From Bdellovibrionales bacterium CG10_big_fil_rev_8_21_14_0_10_45_34 (lineage in GTDB: Bacteria; Bdellovibrionota; Bdellovibrionia; Bdellovibrionales; 1-14-0-10-45-34): 64,000 nt of DNA. The notes below the pieces were generated by a model. It had not been told where the DNA came from, made no database searches, and was given only the letters and a program-made list of their open reading frames with translations. Shown here piece by piece: positions 26,518 to 64,000 of the stretch. Each line of letters opens with the position of its first letter. Position 1 is the stretch's first letter. The DNA is taken from positions 129,501 through 193,500 of the forward strand of contig PEZS01000002.1 in assembly GCA_002778785.1 (NCBI GenBank). Reading direction: 5' to 3'. The translations under genes and the position numbers were made by a program.

Positions 26518-28575
26518 ATGTTCAACCTAAAGGTTCAAGGCCAGCGCGTTTCTCATCTTCCTTTTGAAGAACTAAAAACGCAGGGATATCTTGAATGTAT
26601 CGAATCCGCCATTCGGATCGCCAAGGAGAAGCTAGACAAAATTAAGTCTCTTCCTGCTGGCTTTGATAATACGATCTTAGGTCTTGACGAATGCTCAGAT
26701 GACCTGCGCATTGCTTCGAATCTCTATCATGCTATTTTTGCGGCACACGGGAATGAACGCATTCGAGCGTTGGCCGCGCCAATTAGTCAAAAGATTACAG
26801 AGTTTTCAAATGACTTACTTTTAGACGAAGCATTGTTCGGCAAAGTCGAAGCCGTCTACCAGAACAAGACTCAGCTTTCGCTGGGCACAGAGCACACGAC
26901 TTTGTTAGAAAAAACTTATCGCGACTTTGTACGTAATGGAGCGCAGTTAAACATCGAACAGAAATCGCAATTGCGAAAGATTGATGACGAGCTTTCTAAG
27001 TGTGCGCCAGAGTTTTCAAATCGAGTATTGAAGGCAACTAATAGTTTTGAACTTCATATCACTCTTGAGAAGGATCTCGAGGGAATCCCCCAAGATGCCA
27101 TAGCAGAAGCGAAGGCCAAAGCGGCAGACCGTGGTGGTTGGATATTTACACTACAGGCACCGAGCCTAACGCCTTTTTTGACTTACTGTAAAAATCGAGA
27201 ACTCAGAAAACAAATGTGGCTTCAGTACAACTCGAGATGCTTGGTTGGCGAAGAGACGACCGTCGAGCTTGTTAAAGAGATAGTGAAATTGCGGCACCAA
27301 AGAGCGCACCTACTCGGCTTTAAATCTCACGCTGAATATGTATTAGAAGAGCGCATGGCGAAGTCTGCACACCAAGTGAATAACTTTTTACAAGAGCTCA
27401 AGCAAGCTTACCTACCTGCAGCCAAACGCGAAATGGATGAACTCAACACCTTTGCTAAAAACGAATTAGGTTTTAAGGATGATGTTGCGCCCTGGGACGT
27501 GAGCTTTTTGATCGAGAAGAAGAAAGAGAAAGACTTTCACTTTAGCGAAGAAGAACTTCGTCCCTACTTTGAACTTAGACAAACGCAAAAAGGGTTGATG
27601 GACCTTACAGAAAAGCTCTTTAAGGTGCGGTTTCAAAAAACAAGTTTTGCTCTTTATCACGATCTCATCGAAAGCTACGAAGTGCTCGAAGCAAGCGGAG
27701 AGCACTTAGGTTTTATTCACTTGGATCTTTTTGCCCGCGATACAAAGCAAGGTGGTGCTTGGATGACGGCTTGGGTTGATCAAGGCAAATTCGACCAAAA
27801 AATCGTGCGACCTCATATTGCCATTGTGTGCAACTTCCGCCAGCCTTCTGAGGAACATAAGACTCTTCTTAATTTTATAGAAGCGCGCACACTCTTTCAT
27901 GAGTTCGGCCATGCTCTTCACGGGTTGTTTTCAAAGTGTACCACCAACAGTTTGAGCGGCACCAACGTCTATTGGGATTTTGTGGAGCTGCCATCACAGT
28001 TTATGGAAAACTGGTTACTAGAACAAGACGTTGTGAACAAGTTTGCGACCCATTACAAAACCGGAGAAACCTTGCCACCGCAGTTGTTAAAGAAACTGCG
28101 CGATTCACAGCACTTCATGGCTGGCTACTATGGCGTCAGGCAGCTGAGCTTTGGAACTCTCGATATGGCCTGGCACTCTAAATCTTTAAACGAGCTTGAA
28201 GGTAGTGTTTTAGGTTCTCAAGATTTTCAACCTTTTGAAAAAGAATCTCTACAAGACTTACTTCTTATGCCGCAGGTGCCTGGCACGTCCATGTCTGCAG
28301 CCTTCTCGCACATTTTTGCTGGAGGTTACTCAGCCGGCTATTACTCTTACAAGTGGGCCGAAGTGATGGATGCAGATGCCTTTGAAGCTTTCAAAGAAAA
28401 GGGTCTGTTTGATCCAGCGGTGGCTCAGTCGTTTAAATCAGAGATTCTCGAGCGCGGCGGCAGCGAGCATCCAGAAACTTTGTACAAACGATTTCGCGGA
28501 AGACTCCCCACCCCCGACGCGCTTTTGCGCCGGGATGGAATCGCAAGTTTTGAAGAACAAAAATCTGAGAGCTAA
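26518..28575 (+). CDS. M3-family oligopeptidase (oligopeptidase A / PrlC-like), cytoplasmic type
   Basis: This 685-residue M3 peptidase has HEFGHALHG at about 461-469, followed by SLSGTNVYWDFVELPSQFME with the third zinc-ligand region, and GYYSYKWAEVMDADAF near 610. There is no signal peptide, unlike the lipoprotein paralogue at 9045. It should degrade short peptides in the cytoplasm. AAGGAGA lies before ATG 26518. The C-terminus (DALLRRDGI then ASFEEQKSES) differs from the alternative C-terminus kept downstream at 31342-31450, implying that the 3' end was replaced during an insertion. Confidence 0.92.
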   Translation: MFNLKVQGQRVSHLPFEELKTQGYLECIESAIRIAKEKLDKIKSLPAGFDNTILGLDECSDDLRIASNLYHAIFAAHGNERIRALAAPISQKITEFSNDLLLDEALFGKVEAVYQNKTQLSLGTEHTTLLEKTYRDFVRNGAQLNIEQKSQLRKIDDELSKCAPEFSNRVLKATNSFELHITLEKDLEGIPQDAIAEAKAKAADRGGWIFTLQAPSLTPFLTYCKNRELRKQMWLQYNSRCLVGEETTVELVKEIVKLRHQRAHLLGFKSHAEYVLEERMAKSAHQVNNFLQELKQAYLPAAKREMDELNTFAKNELGFKDDVAPWDVSFLIEKKKEKDFHFSEEELRPYFELRQTQKGLMDLTEKLFKVRFQKTSFALYHDLIESYEVLEASGEHLGFIHLDLFARDTKQGGAWMTAWVDQGKFDQKIVRPHIAIVCNFRQPSEEHKTLLNFIEARTLFHEFGHALHGLFSKCTTNSLSGTNVYWDFVELPSQFMENWLLEQDVVNKFATHYKTGETLPPQLLKKLRDSQHFMAGYYGVRQLSFGTLDMAWHSKSLNELEGSVLGSQDFQPFEKESLQDLLLMPQVPGTSMSAAFSHIFAGGYSAGYYSYKWAEVMDADAFEAFKEKGLFDPAVAQSFKSEILERGGSEHPETLYKRFRGRLPTPDALLRRDGIASFEEQKSES
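28528..28541. repeat. Core repeat copy A (within the M3 peptidase 3' end)
   Basis: CGCCGGGATGGAAT, the 14-base core shared with copies at 30659 and 31412. Identity with copy B extends to 21 bases (28526-28546 versus 30657-30677). The stretch just upstream, 28458-28520, is identical over 63 bases to 31342-31404. Confidence 0.85.
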
Positions 28576-28630
28576 ATACGATCTTCAAAAAGAGCGCCGC
28601 GATGAGATCCAACCAAGCACATTGTGATCA

Positions 28631-28649
28631 ACGAATGTTATTCATTCGT
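28631..28649. terminator. Short hairpin between convergent genes
   Basis: ACGAATG (28631-28637) pairs with CATTCGT (28643-28649) around a 5-base loop, overlapping the stop of the minus-strand metallopeptidase. No long T-run, so its terminator function is only possible. Confidence 0.35.
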
Positions 28650-29675
28650 AGGTTCTGGTAATCTCTCAAAGTAATAGCAGAATTTGCTATCTTGCTCACC
28701 AGGAGGGAGTACTTCAAAACTTTTGGTCACAGTTCGGAACTCAGTAACACCTGTTAGCAAATAATCGCCGAATTGACGAACTCCGATTAGCGTTGGGTAA
28801 TAATGAAGCGAGAATGGAACGATAAGCGCTTCAAGTTTAGGATCAAACCTAGCATGGTTCCTGTGATAATGATGAACTCCTACGTCACGATCAATCGTCA
28901 TAAGTCTTACGTTGATATATTGCCATGTGTTCGTATGACAACTAGATTGCCAATTGTCCGGATCACAATACTGGGTTGCTTCTAATTGCCACCCCTGATA
29001 AACCTCTGGATCCGAAAAAAGCGGCCCTGCATCTGGGGCTTTAGAGGGCTTTCTCAAGCGAAAATAATAGCGGTCAGGCAACAAATTCCCCCTTGCCCAA
29101 CAGCGTCCCTCCCAGGACCCAGCAATCTCTGCGGGGTTGGGTCGAGTCGAAAGATTCTTATTAAGGAACAATTCGTAAAGATGCTCCTGGGGTCGTTGGG
29201 CTTGAGCCGCCTCTTGCAACGCTTGCTTCGATTGTTGAGCTAGTAGATCTCTTCCCAACTGATCTAAAAACTGATGGTCCGGTATACCAACAAGATGTCC
29301 CGTCTCGTGGACTGCAAGTACAAAAGCTTCATCTGGCGTCACTCCATGGGTTTCAAAAAAGGGAACGCTGAGCACTATATGATCTGGTTTCTCAAGCGGT
29401 AGCGCTAAAGCCGCCTTTTCTTGACCCTCGTCGAACAGACGTTCCCGCTCCGATCGCTTAATGGGCTTACTTCTAACAGCTTCAATCTTTCCCAACCAGT
29501 TGCCCCTAAGGACTTCGTCATTAATCGATTTACTGGATCGAATAGCAACGTGAGCGCGATCAAGAGCAAAGTGAAACCGGGTCTCGTATATGTCGGCTCC
29601 ACCGCCTTCCTTTCCTGCCATGGCACAAAGGGGGGTTAGCCAAAGAAGGCTTACACTTAGAAGTTTTGTCTTCAT
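28638..29675 (-). CDS. Secreted putative zinc metallopeptidase (HExxHxxGxxD type)
   Basis: The 345-residue precursor has a signal peptide (LLSVSLLWLTPLCAMAG). The sequence VHETGHLVGIPDHQF at about residues 120-134 is HExxHxxGxxD/H, the metzincin-like zinc site. A Trp/Tyr/His-rich C-terminal domain follows; no named family was recognised for it. Its start overlaps the stop of the TIGR02147 regulator (ATGA), so the two are coupled. It lies inside the segment bounded by M3-derived repeats A and B, and is probably part of a transferred unit. Confidence 0.7.
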   Translation of the reverse strand: MKTKLLSVSLLWLTPLCAMAGKEGGGADIYETRFHFALDRAHVAIRSSKSINDEVLRGNWLGKIEAVRSKPIKRSERERLFDEGQEKAALALPLEKPDHIVLSVPFFETHGVTPDEAFVLAVHETGHLVGIPDHQFLDQLGRDLLAQQSKQALQEAAQAQRPQEHLYELFLNKNLSTRPNPAEIAGSWEGRCWARGNLLPDRYYFRLRKPSKAPDAGPLFSDPEVYQGWQLEATQYCDPDNWQSSCHTNTWQYINVRLMTIDRDVGVHHYHRNHARFDPKLEALIVPFSLHYYPTLIGVRQFGDYLLTGVTEFRTVTKSFEVLPPGEQDSKFCYYFERLPEPTNE

Positions 29676-30487
29676 TTCATTCTCCTCATTTTTATTTCCT
29701 TATTAGAGTTCGCTGTTACTGGATAAAGCGAAACCCCCAGATGATAGACTCGAGTGGGTTTCTTGTTTCTTTCAAAAAAATTGCACAAGTCTCGTCGAAA
29801 GTTCTTAATTATTTCTCGCGCCTCATCTAGGTCTTCAGGATTAACTGCCATGGTCATTGAGGTATGACTCCTCAGATCGACGGGAACCTCTTCAAGTGCT
29901 CGAATAGACATTTCAAGAACCTGTCGCTGCAGGTTTCTAGCGGCTTTGCTTGTTAAATTTCCGTTGATATTTGTCGCTCGCGCATTCTTTGAAGTGTCTA
30001 CCCATGATCCATCTGGCTTGATCTTTAGCAGACCAACTCGCTGGAGCCGCTCAACTGCAATTCGCACTTCAGTTTGGGATATCCCAAGGGTTTTTGCTAG
30101 GTACTTACAGTCGGGCTTGAAGTCGACGGCCCGGATGAGTTCAAGGATTGCATAGTGATACCAATCGGATATGATCGCATACGTATCAAGAGTGATTTGC
30201 TGATAACCATCGTTTTTTCTTCTTTGATGAGATGCTCGTTCATTAAGCTCCTCAAGCTTCATACCCAAGGCAAGTCCCAATCGTTCACGCATTTTTTTTG
30301 TGATGGGCCGCTTTCCTCTGAGCATGGCAGATAAAGGTGACGCCTCTACTCCTAGGGATCGTGCAAACGCTCTCAGGGAGTAGCTAGAGTTCTTTCGACA
30401 TCGCTCTACAAACTCTTTCTGAAGCAGCATGCGAAATTCAGATTTATCTTTCGACATTTCCATGGTGCAGAGAATACACAATCTCAT
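29672..30487 (-). CDS. TIGR02147-family transcriptional regulator
   Basis: About 271 residues. The N-terminal third has FVERCRKNSSYSLRAFARSL, GVEASPLSAMLRGKRPIT and MRERLGLALGM, an XRE-like HTH typical of TIGR02147. The rest has YAIISDWYHYAILELIRAVDF, ISQTEVRIAVERLQRVGLL (a winged-helix-like segment) and SMTMAVNPEDLDEAREIIKNFRRDL, also family hallmarks. The start is uncertain between ATG 30487, 30460 and 30454. It is translationally coupled with the metallopeptidase gene and may control it or its export timing. The family is expanded in Bdellovibrio and Fibrobacter, and its role is largely unknown. Confidence 0.88.
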   Translation of the reverse strand: MRLCILCTMEMSKDKSEFRMLLQKEFVERCRKNSSYSLRAFARSLGVEASPLSAMLRGKRPITKKMRERLGLALGMKLEELNERASHQRRKNDGYQQITLDTYAIISDWYHYAILELIRAVDFKPDCKYLAKTLGISQTEVRIAVERLQRVGLLKIKPDGSWVDTSKNARATNINGNLTSKAARNLQRQVLEMSIRALEEVPVDLRSHTSMTMAVNPEDLDEAREIIKNFRRDLCNFFERNKKPTRVYHLGVSLYPVTANSNKEIKMRRMK

Positions 30488-30581
30488 TGCGCCCCGCGAC
30501 TCATTTTGTCACAAAGTGTGACAAACCAATTGTCACAGGTAATTTCTTCATTTGAAAAACACCGGAAGAACTTAAAAAACT

Positions 30582-30664
30582 CGCGCAGAGCTAGTGAGTA
30601 TCCAAAAAGCTAGGATTAACGTTATAGCCTAAGCCATCCAACACTAGGCTCACTAGTGCGCCGG
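30582..30664. repeat. Imperfect inverted repeat ending in core repeat B
   Basis: CTAGTGAG (30591-30598) pairs with CTCACTAG (30649-30656). Outside it GCGC (30583-30586) pairs with GCGC (30658-30661), and inside GCTAGG faces CCTAAGC. The right arm runs directly into the 14-base core at 30659. A folded site beside a recombination core is a common attachment-site layout, but the function here is inferred. Confidence 0.5.
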
Positions 30665-30672
30665 GATGGAAT
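30659..30672. repeat. Core repeat copy B
   Basis: CGCCGGGATGGAAT, with identity to copy A extending over 30657-30677. It is not within any M3 coding context here; the sequence on both sides is unrelated to the peptidase gene. Confidence 0.85.
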
Positions 30673-30767
30673 CGCAAATCGATAATCTCTTCATCTTGAA
30701 GTGAAGTCTTGAAGAAGTTCGTTTGACCTGTAGCCTCCCTACGGTCTCTGCCGCGTAATTCATTGTA

Positions 30768-30802
30768 TTGACATTGGAGCTACGCTGTTGTACCATTGCT
30801 TA
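30768..30802 (+). promoter_or_regulatory. Sigma-70-type promoter of brnTA, predicted leaderless
   Basis: TTGACA at 30768-30773 is followed by a 17-base spacer and TACCAT at 30791-30796. A start about 6-8 bases past the -10 would fall at or next to the brnT ATG 30802, and no ribosome binding site lies before that ATG. The transcript is therefore expected to be leaderless. Confidence 0.65.
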
Positions 30803-31086
30803 TGATCTTCGATTGGGACGACCTTAAAGCCGAATCCAACAAGAGTAAGCACGGAGTGAGTTTTTCAGAGGCCGCAACTAGTTTTTCTGATCCAAACGCC
30901 ATCGAGTTTCTCGACGGAAAGAACTCTGACAAAGAGGACCGATGGATATTGGTGGGACTCTCATCAAAGCTCCAGCTTCTTCTGATCGTTTTTGTAGAGC
31001 GAGAAGAAAAGGTCATTCGTATTGTCTCGGCGCGAAAGGCAGTTAAAGACGAGATTAACCAATATTTTTCAAGGATAAAAAAGTGA
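30802..31086 (+). CDS. brnT: BrnT-family ribonuclease toxin
   Basis: This 94-residue protein begins IFDWDDLKAESNKSKHGVSF and continues with FSDPNAIEF, EDRWILVGLS, LLLIVFVEREEKVIRIVSARKA. This is the full BrnT pattern (FDWDxxKxxxNxxKHGVSF...RxISARKA), a RelE-like RNase toxin. ATG 30802 is used instead of TTG 30796. BrnA follows with a 4-base overlap. The pair lies between core repeats B and C. Confidence 0.93.
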   Translation: MIFDWDDLKAESNKSKHGVSFSEAATSFSDPNAIEFLDGKNSDKEDRWILVGLSSKLQLLLIVFVEREEKVIRIVSARKAVKDEINQYFSRIKK

Positions 31087-31328
31087 AAGTTAAATACGAT
31101 CTTTCAAAAGCGAAAAGTGCAAAGAAGCGTCGAGGCTTAAAAGTTCAGAAAAGCTTTCGGCTCGATCCTGAGGTCTTGCTGTGGCTCGAAGAACAGGGTG
31201 AAAAACAAGGCATGGGATACCAGACTTTTCTTAACTGGTATCTAAACCGACAAATAGCTGAGGAGAAGACAACCAGCGAGCGGCTTGCTGCCCTCGAGGC
31301 TGAGATCTTTAAGAAGAAAAGAGCTTGA
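31083..31328 (+). CDS. brnA: BrnA-type antitoxin
   Basis: This 81-residue partner starts at GTG 31083, overlapping the brnT stop (GTGA). It has the conserved KYDLSKAKSAKKR N-terminus and VQKSFRLDPEVLLWLEEQGEKQ, a ribbon-helix-helix DNA-binding segment, then YQTFLNWYLNRQI. In known systems BrnA neutralises BrnT and represses the brnTA promoter. Toxin-first gene order is standard for this family. Confidence 0.9.
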   Translation: MKVKYDLSKAKSAKKRRGLKVQKSFRLDPEVLLWLEEQGEKQGMGYQTFLNWYLNRQIAEEKTTSERLAALEAEIFKKKRA

Positions 31329-31341
31329 AACGAAGGCATAA

Positions 31342-31450
31342 CGGCAGCGAGCATCCAGAAACTTTGTACAAACGATTTCGCGGAAGACTCCCCACCCCCG
31401 ACGCACTACTTCGCCGGGATGGAATAAAGGTTTTGCCCGGGACAAACTAA
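31342..31450 (+). pseudogene. Detached 3' end of an M3 peptidase gene (copy C)
   Basis: Bases 31342-31404 are identical to 28458-28520 of the intact M3 gene. The next 20 bases differ only at synonymous positions (Ala-Leu-Leu-Arg encoded by other codons). The frame then ends DGIKVLPGTN and a stop at 31448-31450. It encodes a diverged version of the last 35 or so residues without the rest of the gene. The core CGCCGGGATGGAAT is at 31412-31425. This is what is left when an element inserts in a gene 3' end and supplies its own copy. Confidence 0.85.
31412..31425. repeat. Core repeat copy C
   Basis: Third copy of the 14-base core, within the detached M3 3' end. Together with copies A and B it delimits two adjoining segments of about 2.1 kb and 0.75 kb. 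Confidence 0.85.
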
Positions 31451-31580: not shown

Positions 31581-32786
31581 TTACTTAAATCGGCTTGCGT
31601 AGTCTTCAAAAACTTTTTGAATCTTTTCTAACTTCTCTAGGCATTCTTCTTTAGTGCCGCTCAAAGAAATCCGCTGTTCGGGTACAAGTTTCTCTGTCGC
31701 AAGAGTACAGTATCCCGAAGACCAAGCAACCCCTCCGAACTTTAGGTATTGTACGCTCGCGGCGAAAGGATCTTTAAGTTCAAGCCATTCAGGCTTGTTT
31801 CTCTGAGCATTAATTTTATACACAAAAGAAGATGATTTACCGCACTCGCGTCGAACATATTCCAGCTCTTTGGTTAAATCGGCGCCGTCATACAATTTGA
31901 TTTCTCGCGCAGTCACAAAGAGATTCGGATGCTGGACGTAGGAATATGCTGTAGCCCCAGTAAGAAAAGATGAACCTTCTCTTCTGTAGACTCCATCTTT
32001 AAAAGCACATAACTCAGAGAAAATTCCAACCTGCACTCTTGGACTAATAGACTGTTGAAGTTGCTTTAAACCTTCTCTAAATCGTGTGGAAAAAGTAAGA
32101 GCAGTTGCAGAACGAGCATGCTTTCCTTCCTGTATCCAAACCGTCCTCACATCGTTTGTGGTCTCATCTTTATACTTATATTCGGCGTGATACGTCAGAG
32201 AATAGTAAACTTCATGAAAGATAAGAGCTGCTTGATTATTGCCGTCCATAAGGTCTATTCCGGCAGCATTCACCGTTATCGACCGGTCCTGCCTGGTCGC
32301 AAGCTGGTAGAGTTTTCCGCCACCTCTTCTATAGGCCTCCCAGTCCACAATCGTATCGTGTAACTCAATCTGAGCCAAAGGCAGCGGCGACCGATACCAC
32401 TGATGCATTTCGATAGTCAAGAGTAGCCCCTCGTAGCTCATTGGATCGAGTAGTTCAATTTCATAAAGCTTGACTGCAATTTTCTCTAACGCCTCGGGCT
32501 TGAGACCTAGATCGCCCAAAGCGAACTTTAGTCTCTCGACGTCAGCGCCCCTGGCCGTTAGGTTGGCAAAATACGGATTCAAATGAAGTCCCTTTTCATA
32601 GAGGTCTACCAGGTAAAGCTTGGATCTGTCGCCGGGCGGAAAAATCCCTACGCCTCCATGAGTGCCGGTTCCCCAGCGAGGCGCAGACATTTTCTGGGCC
32701 TGTACAGCCTGCCCAGTTAATAGCTCGAACACAATCGCTGTGACACTTGCTAATACTAGATTTTTTAAATTTGATCTAAGTTTCAT
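31581..32786 (-). CDS. Secreted protein of unknown function, paired with a TIGR02147 regulator
   Basis: The 401-residue precursor has a signal peptide (NLVLASVTAIVFELLTGQAVQAQ). A region ITVNAAGIDLMDGNNQAALIFHEVYYSLTYHAEY holds a His-Glu pair in a helix followed by His eleven residues on. This recalls, but does not match, a metallopeptidase HExxH site. The end is charged and helical. No family was identified. The gene is 28 bases downstream of the regulator at 32815, with GGAG before ATG 32786, so the two form an operon like the 29672/28638 pair. Confidence 0.6.
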   Translation of the reverse strand: MKLRSNLKNLVLASVTAIVFELLTGQAVQAQKMSAPRWGTGTHGGVGIFPPGDRSKLYLVDLYEKGLHLNPYFANLTARGADVERLKFALGDLGLKPEALEKIAVKLYEIELLDPMSYEGLLLTIEMHQWYRSPLPLAQIELHDTIVDWEAYRRGGGKLYQLATRQDRSITVNAAGIDLMDGNNQAALIFHEVYYSLTYHAEYKYKDETTNDVRTVWIQEGKHARSATALTFSTRFREGLKQLQQSISPRVQVGIFSELCAFKDGVYRREGSSFLTGATAYSYVQHPNLFVTAREIKLYDGADLTKELEYVRRECGKSSSFVYKINAQRNKPEWLELKDPFAASVQYLKFGGVAWSSGYCTLATEKLVPEQRISLSGTKEECLEKLEKIQKVFEDYASRFK

Positions 32787-32814
32787 GTCTCGTTACTCCA
32801 ATTTCTTTTGGTTA

Positions 32815-33696
32815 TTAATCTTGTATTGTTTCAAGAGGGAACAAACTCAACGACAACTGATAAACCTGCCTGGATCTGCCGCCCTCCAAAAAGGTGCACA
32901 GCTCTTCGCTAAACTTTTGAATCATTTGCTTCGCCTTCGGGATCAACCTTGGGTCAATGTTCATTGTCATTCCAATCTGAGATCTGCACTCGATCGGCAC
33001 TTCATCTAGAGCATCAATTGCCTTTGTCAGCATTTGTTTTTGATGAATTCGGTGAGCTGAAGTCGTTGTGGCCTTATCGTCAGTCGTCATATCTTTTCGC
33101 TTCTTTTTGTATCCCGCTTTTACTGGTTCGATATAACCAAGCTCAACAAGTCTTTGCATAGCAGCTGTCGACTGAGCTTCAGAGATCTTCAGGCGTTTGG
33201 AAATGTATTTCGCAGTTGGCTCGAACCTGGGGTTTTGACACATTTCCATAAGAGCTATGTGATACCAATCTGCGATAACCTGAAATTCTTCTAGCGAAAT
33301 AGTTGTTTGCACATTTTCTTGAGTCTTTTTTGCGTGAGAGCGAGAACCACTTAGGAGGGCCGAACCACCGGGCCCAACTGAAATTCCATCACGACTCTCG
33401 GCTTTGCTTCCAGCGGTGAACGACTTTGGCTTCGAATTCCTTTTAGAATTCTGAACATCGTGCAAAGAAAGCCAAAACCTTTGGGCGTTAACGGGATCCA
33501 GTTCCAAGGCCATCATAAGTTTTTTTGAAGTACGGTCTGATGGGACTCTTTTACCAGAGATAATTTGTGAAAGAGCTCCGTCGTTGACACCTATACTGCG
33601 GGCAAAAGCGCGAATAGAATACCTGGGGTTCTGTTCGCATCGTCTTTCAAGCTCACGTCTGAGAGCCAGTCTGTAAAATGGGGCTGGAGTAGTCAT
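32815..33696 (-). CDS. TIGR02147-family transcriptional regulator (second copy)
   Basis: A 293-residue paralogue of the regulator at 29672. It shares ELERRCEQNPRYSIRAFARS, GALSQIISGKRVPSDRTSKK, FQVIADWYHIALMEM, YISKRLKISEAQSTAAMQRL and GMTMNIDPRLIPKAKQMIQ. The central segment (about 70-105) is a longer, Ser/Lys-rich linker than in the other copy. It probably controls the secreted protein gene immediately downstream. Whether it activates or represses cannot be read from the sequence. Confidence 0.88.
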   Translation of the reverse strand: MTTPAPFYRLALRRELERRCEQNPRYSIRAFARSIGVNDGALSQIISGKRVPSDRTSKKLMMALELDPVNAQRFWLSLHDVQNSKRNSKPKSFTAGSKAESRDGISVGPGGSALLSGSRSHAKKTQENVQTTISLEEFQVIADWYHIALMEMCQNPRFEPTAKYISKRLKISEAQSTAAMQRLVELGYIEPVKAGYKKKRKDMTTDDKATTTSAHRIHQKQMLTKAIDALDEVPIECRSQIGMTMNIDPRLIPKAKQMIQKFSEELCTFLEGGRSRQVYQLSLSLFPLETIQD

Positions 33697-37967: not shown

Positions 37968-37993
37968 TAAAAAGAAGCAGGTACCAAAGAACT
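37968..37993. repeat. 26-base direct repeat, copy 1
   Basis: Begins TAAAAAGAAGCAGG and ends AAAGAACT, containing the palindrome GGTACC. An identical copy lies 54 bases downstream, and a partial CAGGTAC occurs between them (about 38005). Confidence 0.85.
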
Positions 37994-38021
37994 GAAAGAG
38001 AATCAGGTACGACGGGACTAC

Positions 38022-38047
38022 TAAAAAGAAGCAGGTACCAAAGAACT
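38022..38047. repeat. 26-base direct repeat, copy 2
   Basis: Identical to 37968-37993. Both lie in the intergenic space before the secreted hydrolase gene. A regulator-binding array or a small dispersed repeat family would both fit. Confidence 0.85.
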
Positions 38048-45642: not shown

Positions 45643-46965
45643 TTATACCCTTTTTACCCTTAGAACCAAGCCCGATTGTTCTATAATTTCAATTTCATCG
45701 TCTTTTTTAACAAGTTCACTCGATTCAAAAGCCCAAATCTCCCCTTCTATTTGCACTTGGCCCCGCATACCGGTTGGATCTACGAACCAAACCTTCAGTC
45801 TCCTCCCTACCATTGAGTCATAACTCAACTTAGGTGAAGACTTCTGAGCTTTTACCACAAGGTAGGCGACAGCGAGCATAATCCCCCCCGCAACAAGCGC
45901 TGTCGGAAGCACAATTTTTAGCATGGCAGCCCAACCTCCAGAGATCGAAGGATCAAACATATAAATGCCTCCAATGACAAATGAGACCAGACCTGCAACT
46001 CCTAAAATCCCGAAACTAGGCACAAAGGCCTCGGCCACCAAGAAGGCCAAACCGAGAACAATCAGGGCCACACCGCCCCACCACACTGCCAATTTTGAAA
46101 ACGACACTAGCGCCAAAATTAGACCGATGCCGCCGAGTACGCCAGGAACAATCGTTCCAGGATGTGTGATCTCAAAGTAAAGAAGGGCAAGGCTTCCCAT
46201 GAAGAGCAGGTAGGCAATTTGCGGGTCCGAGAAGAGACTTAAAAGATAATGTTTTAAGCTGCTTTCGAATTTAATGATTGTTCCGACAGTCACACTTTTT
46301 GTAGACCGATCCGTCATCACAACCTTTTTCCCCTTTGCCATTTCGAGAAACTGATTGATTGAGGCAGACACAAAGTCGAGACCACCTTCTTTGAGAGCGT
46401 CCTTTGCAGACACAGCTTTGGCTTCTGTGATGATGTCACGCCCGAACTTTTGACTCCTACCGCGAAGGGACGTCAAACCATCAAGCCAACTTGTCGTGTC
46501 GTTTATCATTTTCTTTCGGAGATCCTCCGACATCTCTTGCCCTGTTGCTAAGATGGGCGTGGCAGCTCCTAAATTGGTAGTCTCGAGTGCGCCGTTTACA
46601 TGACAAGCTTGTAGTATAATCGCACCTGCGCTACCCGCATGCGCCCCTTCAGGGGCGACAAGACACAATACCGGAAACTCAAAATTCAAAATGAGCTCCA
46701 CAATTTCTCTTGTCGAATCCAAAAGACCGCCAGGCGTATTCATTAAAAAAAGAACCGTCGAGCAATTCTTTTTTCGAACTTCGACAAAAACATCTTTCAC
46801 CAATTCAACTGTTGAAGGTCCGATCACACCACTCATTGATGCCTCAATCGTGCAACCGCTTGCCTCGGTCGCGGGGGGCTCTGCCGGCGCTTGCGCATTT
46901 AGAGAGAGCGGCAAAACAACTAGGGCCATCAAAAAAACTATCAATCCGTTTTTAAATCTCGTCAT
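45643..46965 (-). CDS. nfeD: NfeD membrane-bound serine protease (STOPP)
   Basis: The 440-residue protein has a signal peptide, then a ClpP-like domain with [15 protein letters not shown] and the nucleophile in [12 protein letters not shown] (Ser), and a Lys farther on. Four to five transmembrane helices follow (about 225-370), and a C-terminal OB-fold ([16 protein letters not shown]...[19 protein letters not shown]). Long-form NfeD cleaves hydrophobic C-termini of membrane proteins such as stomatin. The slipin gene is adjacent. It overlaps the preceding gene by 14 bases. Confidence 0.92.
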
Positions 46966-63806: not shown

Positions 63807-64000
63807 TTAAATTTTTGCCGGTGTTTGTCCGGGTCCTTGTCCGGGTCCTTGTCCGGGCCCCTGACCGGGTCCTCCAGGACACTGCCCCGGATGCTGATCA
63901 GGATCGCATGGCGGAGGCGTTGGAGTCGGCGTTGGAGTCGGCGTTGGAGTCGGCGTTGGAGTCGGCGTTGGAGTCGGCGTTGGAGTCGGCGTTGGAGTCG
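63807..64000 (-). CDS. Protein with Thr-Pro repeat tail, C-terminal part (5' end outside window)
   Basis: The minus-strand frame is open from the right edge to a TAA at 63807-63809. It reads as Thr-Pro dipeptides (at least 14), then PPPCDPDQHPGQCPGG, then PGQG repeats and TPAKI. Such Pro-rich tails are typical of surface or secreted proteins. The N-terminal part is beyond the window and nothing can be said of its function. Confidence 0.75.
   Translation of the reverse strand, partial: TPTPTPTPTPTPTPTPTPTPTPTPTPTPPPCDPDQHPGQCPGGPGQGPGQGPGQGPGQTPAKI
63828..63866. repeat. 12-base tandem repeat encoding Pro-Gly-Gln-Gly
   Basis: About three units of GTCCGGGTCCTT-type sequence, the last degenerate, encode repeated PGQG in the minus-strand protein. 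Confidence 0.75.
63916..63999. repeat. Perfect 12-base tandem repeat, seven copies to the window edge
   Basis: GGCGTTGGAGTC is repeated exactly seven times and continues past the window end. It encodes (Thr-Pro)n on the minus strand. Exact copies suggest recent expansion. Confidence 0.95.

Follow-up and report, generated by a model that had tools for sequence, protein, structure and literature searches.

The element e14 integrates into the 3' end of the protein-coding gene icd. Equally, the integrative element SGI1 occupies the 3' end of another protein-coding gene, trmE (PMC8409611). Insertion with long target duplication has been described for restriction-modification genes of Helicobacter pylori (Nobusato et al., 2000, as reported in PMC1643837 and PMC3031569), and restriction-modification systems and toxin-antitoxin pairs are said to have addiction and apparent mobility in common (PMC2654758). 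Furthermore, in homology-facilitated illegitimate recombination, or recombination at the border (de Vries & Wackernagel, 2002; Prudhomme et al., 2002; as cited in PMC3784515), one homologous and one non-homologous junction trap foreign DNA beside an anchor.

The 3' end of an M3 peptidase gene in the window, the whole 64,000-nucleotide stretch of DNA that was analysed, invites comparison with all of these. As in insertion with long target duplication, to the extent that the citing reports summarise it, addiction-type pairs lie between long direct host repeats without a transposase of their own (84 bp with 95% identity for copies A and C of the M3 gene end; 108 bp with 93% identity at a second gene of the same contig). 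The M3 locus differs from those summarised cases in that the duplicated piece is the 3' end of a gene with copies synonymously diverged near the stop, that the cargo consists of toxin-antitoxin and TIGR02147 pairs and that the site appears to have been used more than once; the likeness is moreover drawn from the sequence of one strain rather than from a strain pair proving insertion. With e14- and SGI1-type elements the locus shares an incoming, synonymously different piece that would restore the gene end and an original end downstream, but it has no integrase, no mobility genes, a total length of 2.9 kb and no attachment core common to the sites. As no integrase was found, the locus is filed as a variant of long target duplication and not as an integrative element. 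Homology-facilitated illegitimate recombination, as outlined in the citing paper, offers the same combination of junctions and is known experimentally, whereas at the M3 gene it is deduced from sequence. Diversity-generating retroelements equally possess an imperfect gene 3'-end repeat nearby; the M3 locus, however, is without a reverse transcriptase and without adenine bias. A narrow literature search found no description of synonymously recoded gene 3' ends with one site reused.

Gene content and repeats of the M3 peptidase locus

The locus is situated on the 206-kb contig C2 of a draft genome of 16 contigs and 3.06 Mb. Its features are as follows (positions in the window; asterisks denote stops).

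26518–28575, plus strand: intact M3 peptidase gene, oligopeptidase A-like, the target gene (PF01432, E 9e-127; orthologues end ..LLRRDGLI at the core)
28458–28520, plus strand: 63-bp block of copy A, the same as 31342–31404
28521–28527, plus strand: portion of copy A with all four synonymous differences from copy C
28528–28541, plus strand: core A, encoding RRDG and the first part of I of the conserved M3 C-terminus
28542–28592, plus strand: new M3 tail ASFEEQKSES* and the next bases, of which 28548–28592 is taken for the relic of a further brnTA
28638–29675, minus strand: cargo, 345-aa secreted-type protein with an HETGH motif, without Pfam or NCBIfam match
29672–30487, minus strand: cargo, TIGR02147/DUF4423 regulator-like protein
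30583–30677, plus strand: copy B, a decayed third M3 3' end with two in-frame stops; its right end, 30657–30677, matches A perfectly over 21 bases
30659–30672, plus strand: core B
30796–31086, plus strand: brnT toxin gene (PF04365, E 2e-25)
31083–31328, plus strand: brnA antitoxin gene (PF14384, E 2e-4, below cut-off); operon DNA of brnTA 75% identical to that of genome G082
31342–31450, plus strand: copy C, the detached M3 3' end, which has the tail IKVLPGTN*, probably the displaced resident end
31412–31425, plus strand: core C

The original prediction had assigned a metallopeptidase/TIGR02147 pair to the segment between copies A and B and brnTA to that between B and C. The M3 peptidase, TIGR02147, BrnT and the brnTA operon are indeed present, but for the 345-aa protein 'metallopeptidase' is a motif call only (HETGH), and BrnA reaches 21.9 bits against PF14384 in the profile search, under the cut-off of 26.1. 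brnA is accepted despite this score because it is the operon partner of brnT and is conserved in G082; a BrnT RNase toxin with PF04365 above cut-off followed by the BrnA antitoxin is the arrangement of a BrnTA type II toxin-antitoxin system. The cargo genes between A and C match only DUF4423/TIGR02147, BrnT and BrnA, with no match for the 345-aa gene, and the absence of an integrase from the inserts, also predicted, was borne out in that no recombinase is found among them. The base composition of the cargo is that of the genome. Two TIGR02147 genes with secreted-type partners flank brnTA (28638–30487 and 31581–33696); with just 30% protein identity these pairs do not represent a recent duplication.

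Over 63 bp (28458–28520 and 31342–31404), copies A and C do not differ; four synonymous changes then follow within 7 nt (GCG CTT TTG in A, GCA CTA CTT in C), after which identity resumes over the 14-base core before the two continue into unrelated tails. Under random placement, such clustering of all four differences inside 7 of the 84 nt has a probability of about 0.0009, too tight for scattered mutation, so at least one of the two copies is a mosaic. Clustered synonymous differences next to the 63-bp identical block are what hybrid junctions would be expected to show. The 14-mer CGCCGGGATGGAAT is present at 28528, 30659 and 31412, and these three exact cores, as well as copy C as a detached M3 end with synonymous changes and another C-terminus, had been predicted correctly. 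Other cargo flanked by the core, for which a search had been proposed, was not encountered, as the whole 3.06-Mb genome contains no further exact copy and one unrelated match with one mismatch. In fact, M3 orthologues across the order terminate in ..LLRRDGLI, which means that the 14-mer is no more than the last part of the conserved M3 C-terminus. In A, TTGCG/CGCAA arms lie on either side of the centre; core C lacks the CGCAA arm.

Copy B had been described by its exact core, which is there, but the whole M3 3' end is recognisable at this position. Over the 68 positions that precede the core, B equals A in 39 (57%), in register and ungapped, an agreement reached by none of 10,000 shuffles; the frame can still be read as SEYPKS*D*RYSLSHPTLGSLVRRDGIA against SEHPETLYKRFRGRLPTPDALLRRDGIA, with two stops. 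The right end of B, TGCGCCGGGATGGAATCGCAA, is exactly that of A over 21 bases, and CACTA immediately left of it agrees with C. Copy B thus resembles an old hybrid end in a state of decay. The inverted repeat proposed to flank core B does not do so, with both arms (30591–30598 and 30649–30656) left of the core and a fold no better than shuffles (z -1.1).

The unit common to the copies is the last ~95 bases of the M3 gene and not the 14-base core. A decayed B next to a fresh C demands a composite move or gene conversion, and the order A, B, C is not explicable as two simple successive insertions. The prediction of two elements bounded by a 14-base attachment core is not supported, given the ~95-base unit, the different age of B and C and the lack of the core at other sites. 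The notion of inserts restoring the gene end persists in view of the synonymous end, the detached copy and the recurrence described below, but not as two separate core-bounded elements.

Behind core A, the 45 nt of 28548–28592 match the brnT/brnA junction (31066–31110) with 80% identity. The score is reached by no shuffle of the tail and by one of 1,706 window pieces, which presumably overlaps the junction itself. On account of this similarity, the current M3 C-terminus ASFEEQKSES is probably read from the remnant of another brnTA.

Copies of gene ends elsewhere in the genome and in relatives

A survey of 3' ends covered 1.31 Mb of the 3.06 Mb and 1,074 ORFs. One-ended local copies of 3' ends were found for the M3 gene, a 549-codon frame (C2:42525–44174), a 128-aa ORF (C1:136547–136933) and the target gene of a retroelement, besides one weak 39-bp match; for 5' ends, the same ORFs gave no one-ended local copy. 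The excess of 3' over 5' ends amounts to three independent cases against none.

The second case on contig C2 has, as judged from its sequence, the same anatomy as the M3 locus with a different toxin-antitoxin cargo. The end of the 549-codon frame (C2:44067–44174) is repeated 1.6 kb downstream at 45669–45776 over 108 bp with 92.6% identity and an unchanged run of 45 bp; the last four differing codons are all synonymous (TGT/TGC, AAG/AAA, TTC/TTT, TTA/TTG) and the sequences after the stop are unrelated. The copies enclose a toxin of RelE/ParE type (TIGR02683) together with an antitoxin that combines HTH and Panacea domains (PF13274), and behind the detached copy a brnA 3'-end remnant is present, 78–81% identical to brnA of genomes G078 and G126. 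Furthermore, another TIGR02147/secreted-protein pair lies between 89-bp direct repeats of 98.9% identity (C6:238804 and 240912), in which no gene end was recognised.

Among relatives, locus L200 in genome G031 harbours brnTA next to a flavoprotein-like ORF, and 51-bp copies (88%) of an ORF end enclose the two. These copies have a 30-bp identical block in common, show one synonymous and one conservative change of codon and continue into unrelated tails; this is a weaker case of the gene-end pattern. In genomes G006 and G009, brnTA lies between two terminator copies of an exonuclease/phosphatase-like gene. As genome G003, 97% identical in that gene, has a single terminator and no brnT match, insertion of brnTA can here be seen by comparison; the repeat is, however, a non-coding terminator, whereas that of the M3 gene is a coding gene end. 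The pattern at gene ends is real but not universal, with no comparable case in 400 kb of two relatives, G009 and G044. The flanks of 109 M3 loci of other genomes contain neither brnTA nor the cargo pair, save a distant TIGR02147 gene in one of them (L019).

Several other repeats were recorded in this genome. On contig C6, 38 bp of an AAA-ATPase-like gene recur exactly behind a trypsin-like gene (241179–241216 and 243526–243563), adjoining the TIGR02147 pair. At C1:136869–138732, a 355-aa flavodoxin-like protein is enclosed by 200-bp repeats of 85% identity, which comprise the end of the 128-aa ORF and the beginning of a small ORF. At C1:84827–85974, a 57-bp copy (84%) of the 3' part of a minus-strand gene is present beyond a lipoprotein-like ORF, with a run of unknown bases nearby. 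A diversity-generating retroelement at C6:329002–332100 consists of an FGE/lectin-type gene whose end is the variable repeat (329493–329618), an Avd-like ORF, a reverse transcriptase (330884–331903) and a template repeat (331917–332042), with differences mostly at template A.

Possible routes of insertion

Our preferred reading, with chances that we consider evenly balanced, is that small cargo modules have repeatedly been inserted at gene 3' ends through anchoring by homology. The segment 28458–31450 would then be made up of stacked modules, with a TIGR02147/secreted-protein pair, brnTA and what is left of another brnTA all having arrived at the M3 3' end. Incoming DNA would have borne a related copy of the last ~30 M3 codons beside its cargo, and a crossover in that homology would have fused the resident gene to the incoming end, with the protein kept, synonymous changes and a new tail acquired and the resident's own end left detached on the far side as copy C. 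A and C may be the junctions of the latest event, which would have brought in the whole A–C block, with copy B as the relic of an older event already within it; alternatively, a fresh C beside an old B could reflect renewal of C by gene conversion. The driver would most likely be ordinary, RecA-type homologous recombination at short homology and not a recombinase, a preference based on the long identical blocks (63, 45 and 30 bp), the lack of a shared motif of more than 9 bases among the sites and the absence of a recombinase nearby. Campbell-type integration of a circle or homology-facilitated illegitimate recombination are candidate routes, and toxin-antitoxin addiction might help retention.

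Integrative elements that rely on a tyrosine recombinase encoded elsewhere, or lost, with an attachment site in the M3 3' end, CGCCGGGATGGAATCGCAA as the core and an incoming site carrying a synonymous gene end, are doubtful but deserve consideration. Exact agreement of A and B over 21 bases, though B is 57% identical elsewhere, indicates a constrained core and fits a site-specific recombinase better; equally, A and C look like junctions at a protein-coding target, A has arms around a centre and the genome contains four tyrosine-recombinase (PF00589) matches. These matches, however, are on contigs C1 and C10 and none is on C2, so that neither the A–C segment nor its contig provides a recombinase, and while 14 bp are common to A, B and C, the right arm is missing in C, no motif is common with the other sites and the identity of A and C runs 63 bp away from the core.

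A purely local history, in which tandem duplication of the M3 3' end was followed by gene conversion and independent arrival of cargo, appears quite unlikely. Gene conversion could account for the unchanged 63-bp block beside a diverged stretch, and the cargo has the base composition of the genome, but the tails past the stop are unrelated, a second gene displays the same anatomy with other cargo and brnTA remnants are present at both sites. Insertion thus seems the better account than duplication in place. An assembly artefact around the 84-bp repeat is conceivable in a draft of 16 contigs but very improbable: the copies differ mutually, an ordinary read would be longer than any of them, the contig around them extends over 206 kb and an independent second case exists. 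A template/variable repeat pair as in diversity-generating retroelements is rejected: the gene 3' end does have an imperfect downstream copy and a real element exists on C6, but neither reverse transcriptase nor Avd is found among the A–C genes, all four A/C differences are synonymous, with just two of them at an A of the downstream copy.

Extending homology-anchored insertion to a previously undescribed class, minimal recombinase-free islets in which toxin-antitoxin modules carry the synonymously recoded last ~30 codons of a host gene and gene 3' ends act as serial docking sites across the order, is speculative and on balance improbable. The movement of chromosomal toxin-antitoxin pairs without a transposase is a long-standing question. 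If such pairs travelled with the last codons of a gene, the host gene would stay working and a datable detached end would remain, a signature that, if true, could be searched for in any genome; the history of such a site could be read from stacked copies of different age at a single gene.

Probable mobility of brnTA and further repeats

The DNA of brnTA is 75% identical to that of G082, a genome of another family, while M3 orthologues within the order reach at most ~52% protein identity, which argues that brnTA has moved between lineages. A link to brnTA as a generally repeat-flanked mobile unit is weak and was set aside: repeats flank 4 of 38 brnTA loci compared with 5 of 251 control positions (P 0.02), an excess that is not significant at a stricter threshold and that leaves the whole distribution unshifted.

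Wider searches of plasmids and viral contigs found nothing, with a 19-mer in a viral contig being a chance match in a different gene and frame. Chance likewise explains why a histidine kinase gene of genome G055 matches copy C over 29 bp. The repeats at locus L196 are members of a local dispersed family and those on contig C10 are tRNA genes. In the window itself, 37968–38047 and 63916–64000 show an exact 26-bp repeat as well as a 37-bp tandem repeat at the window end.
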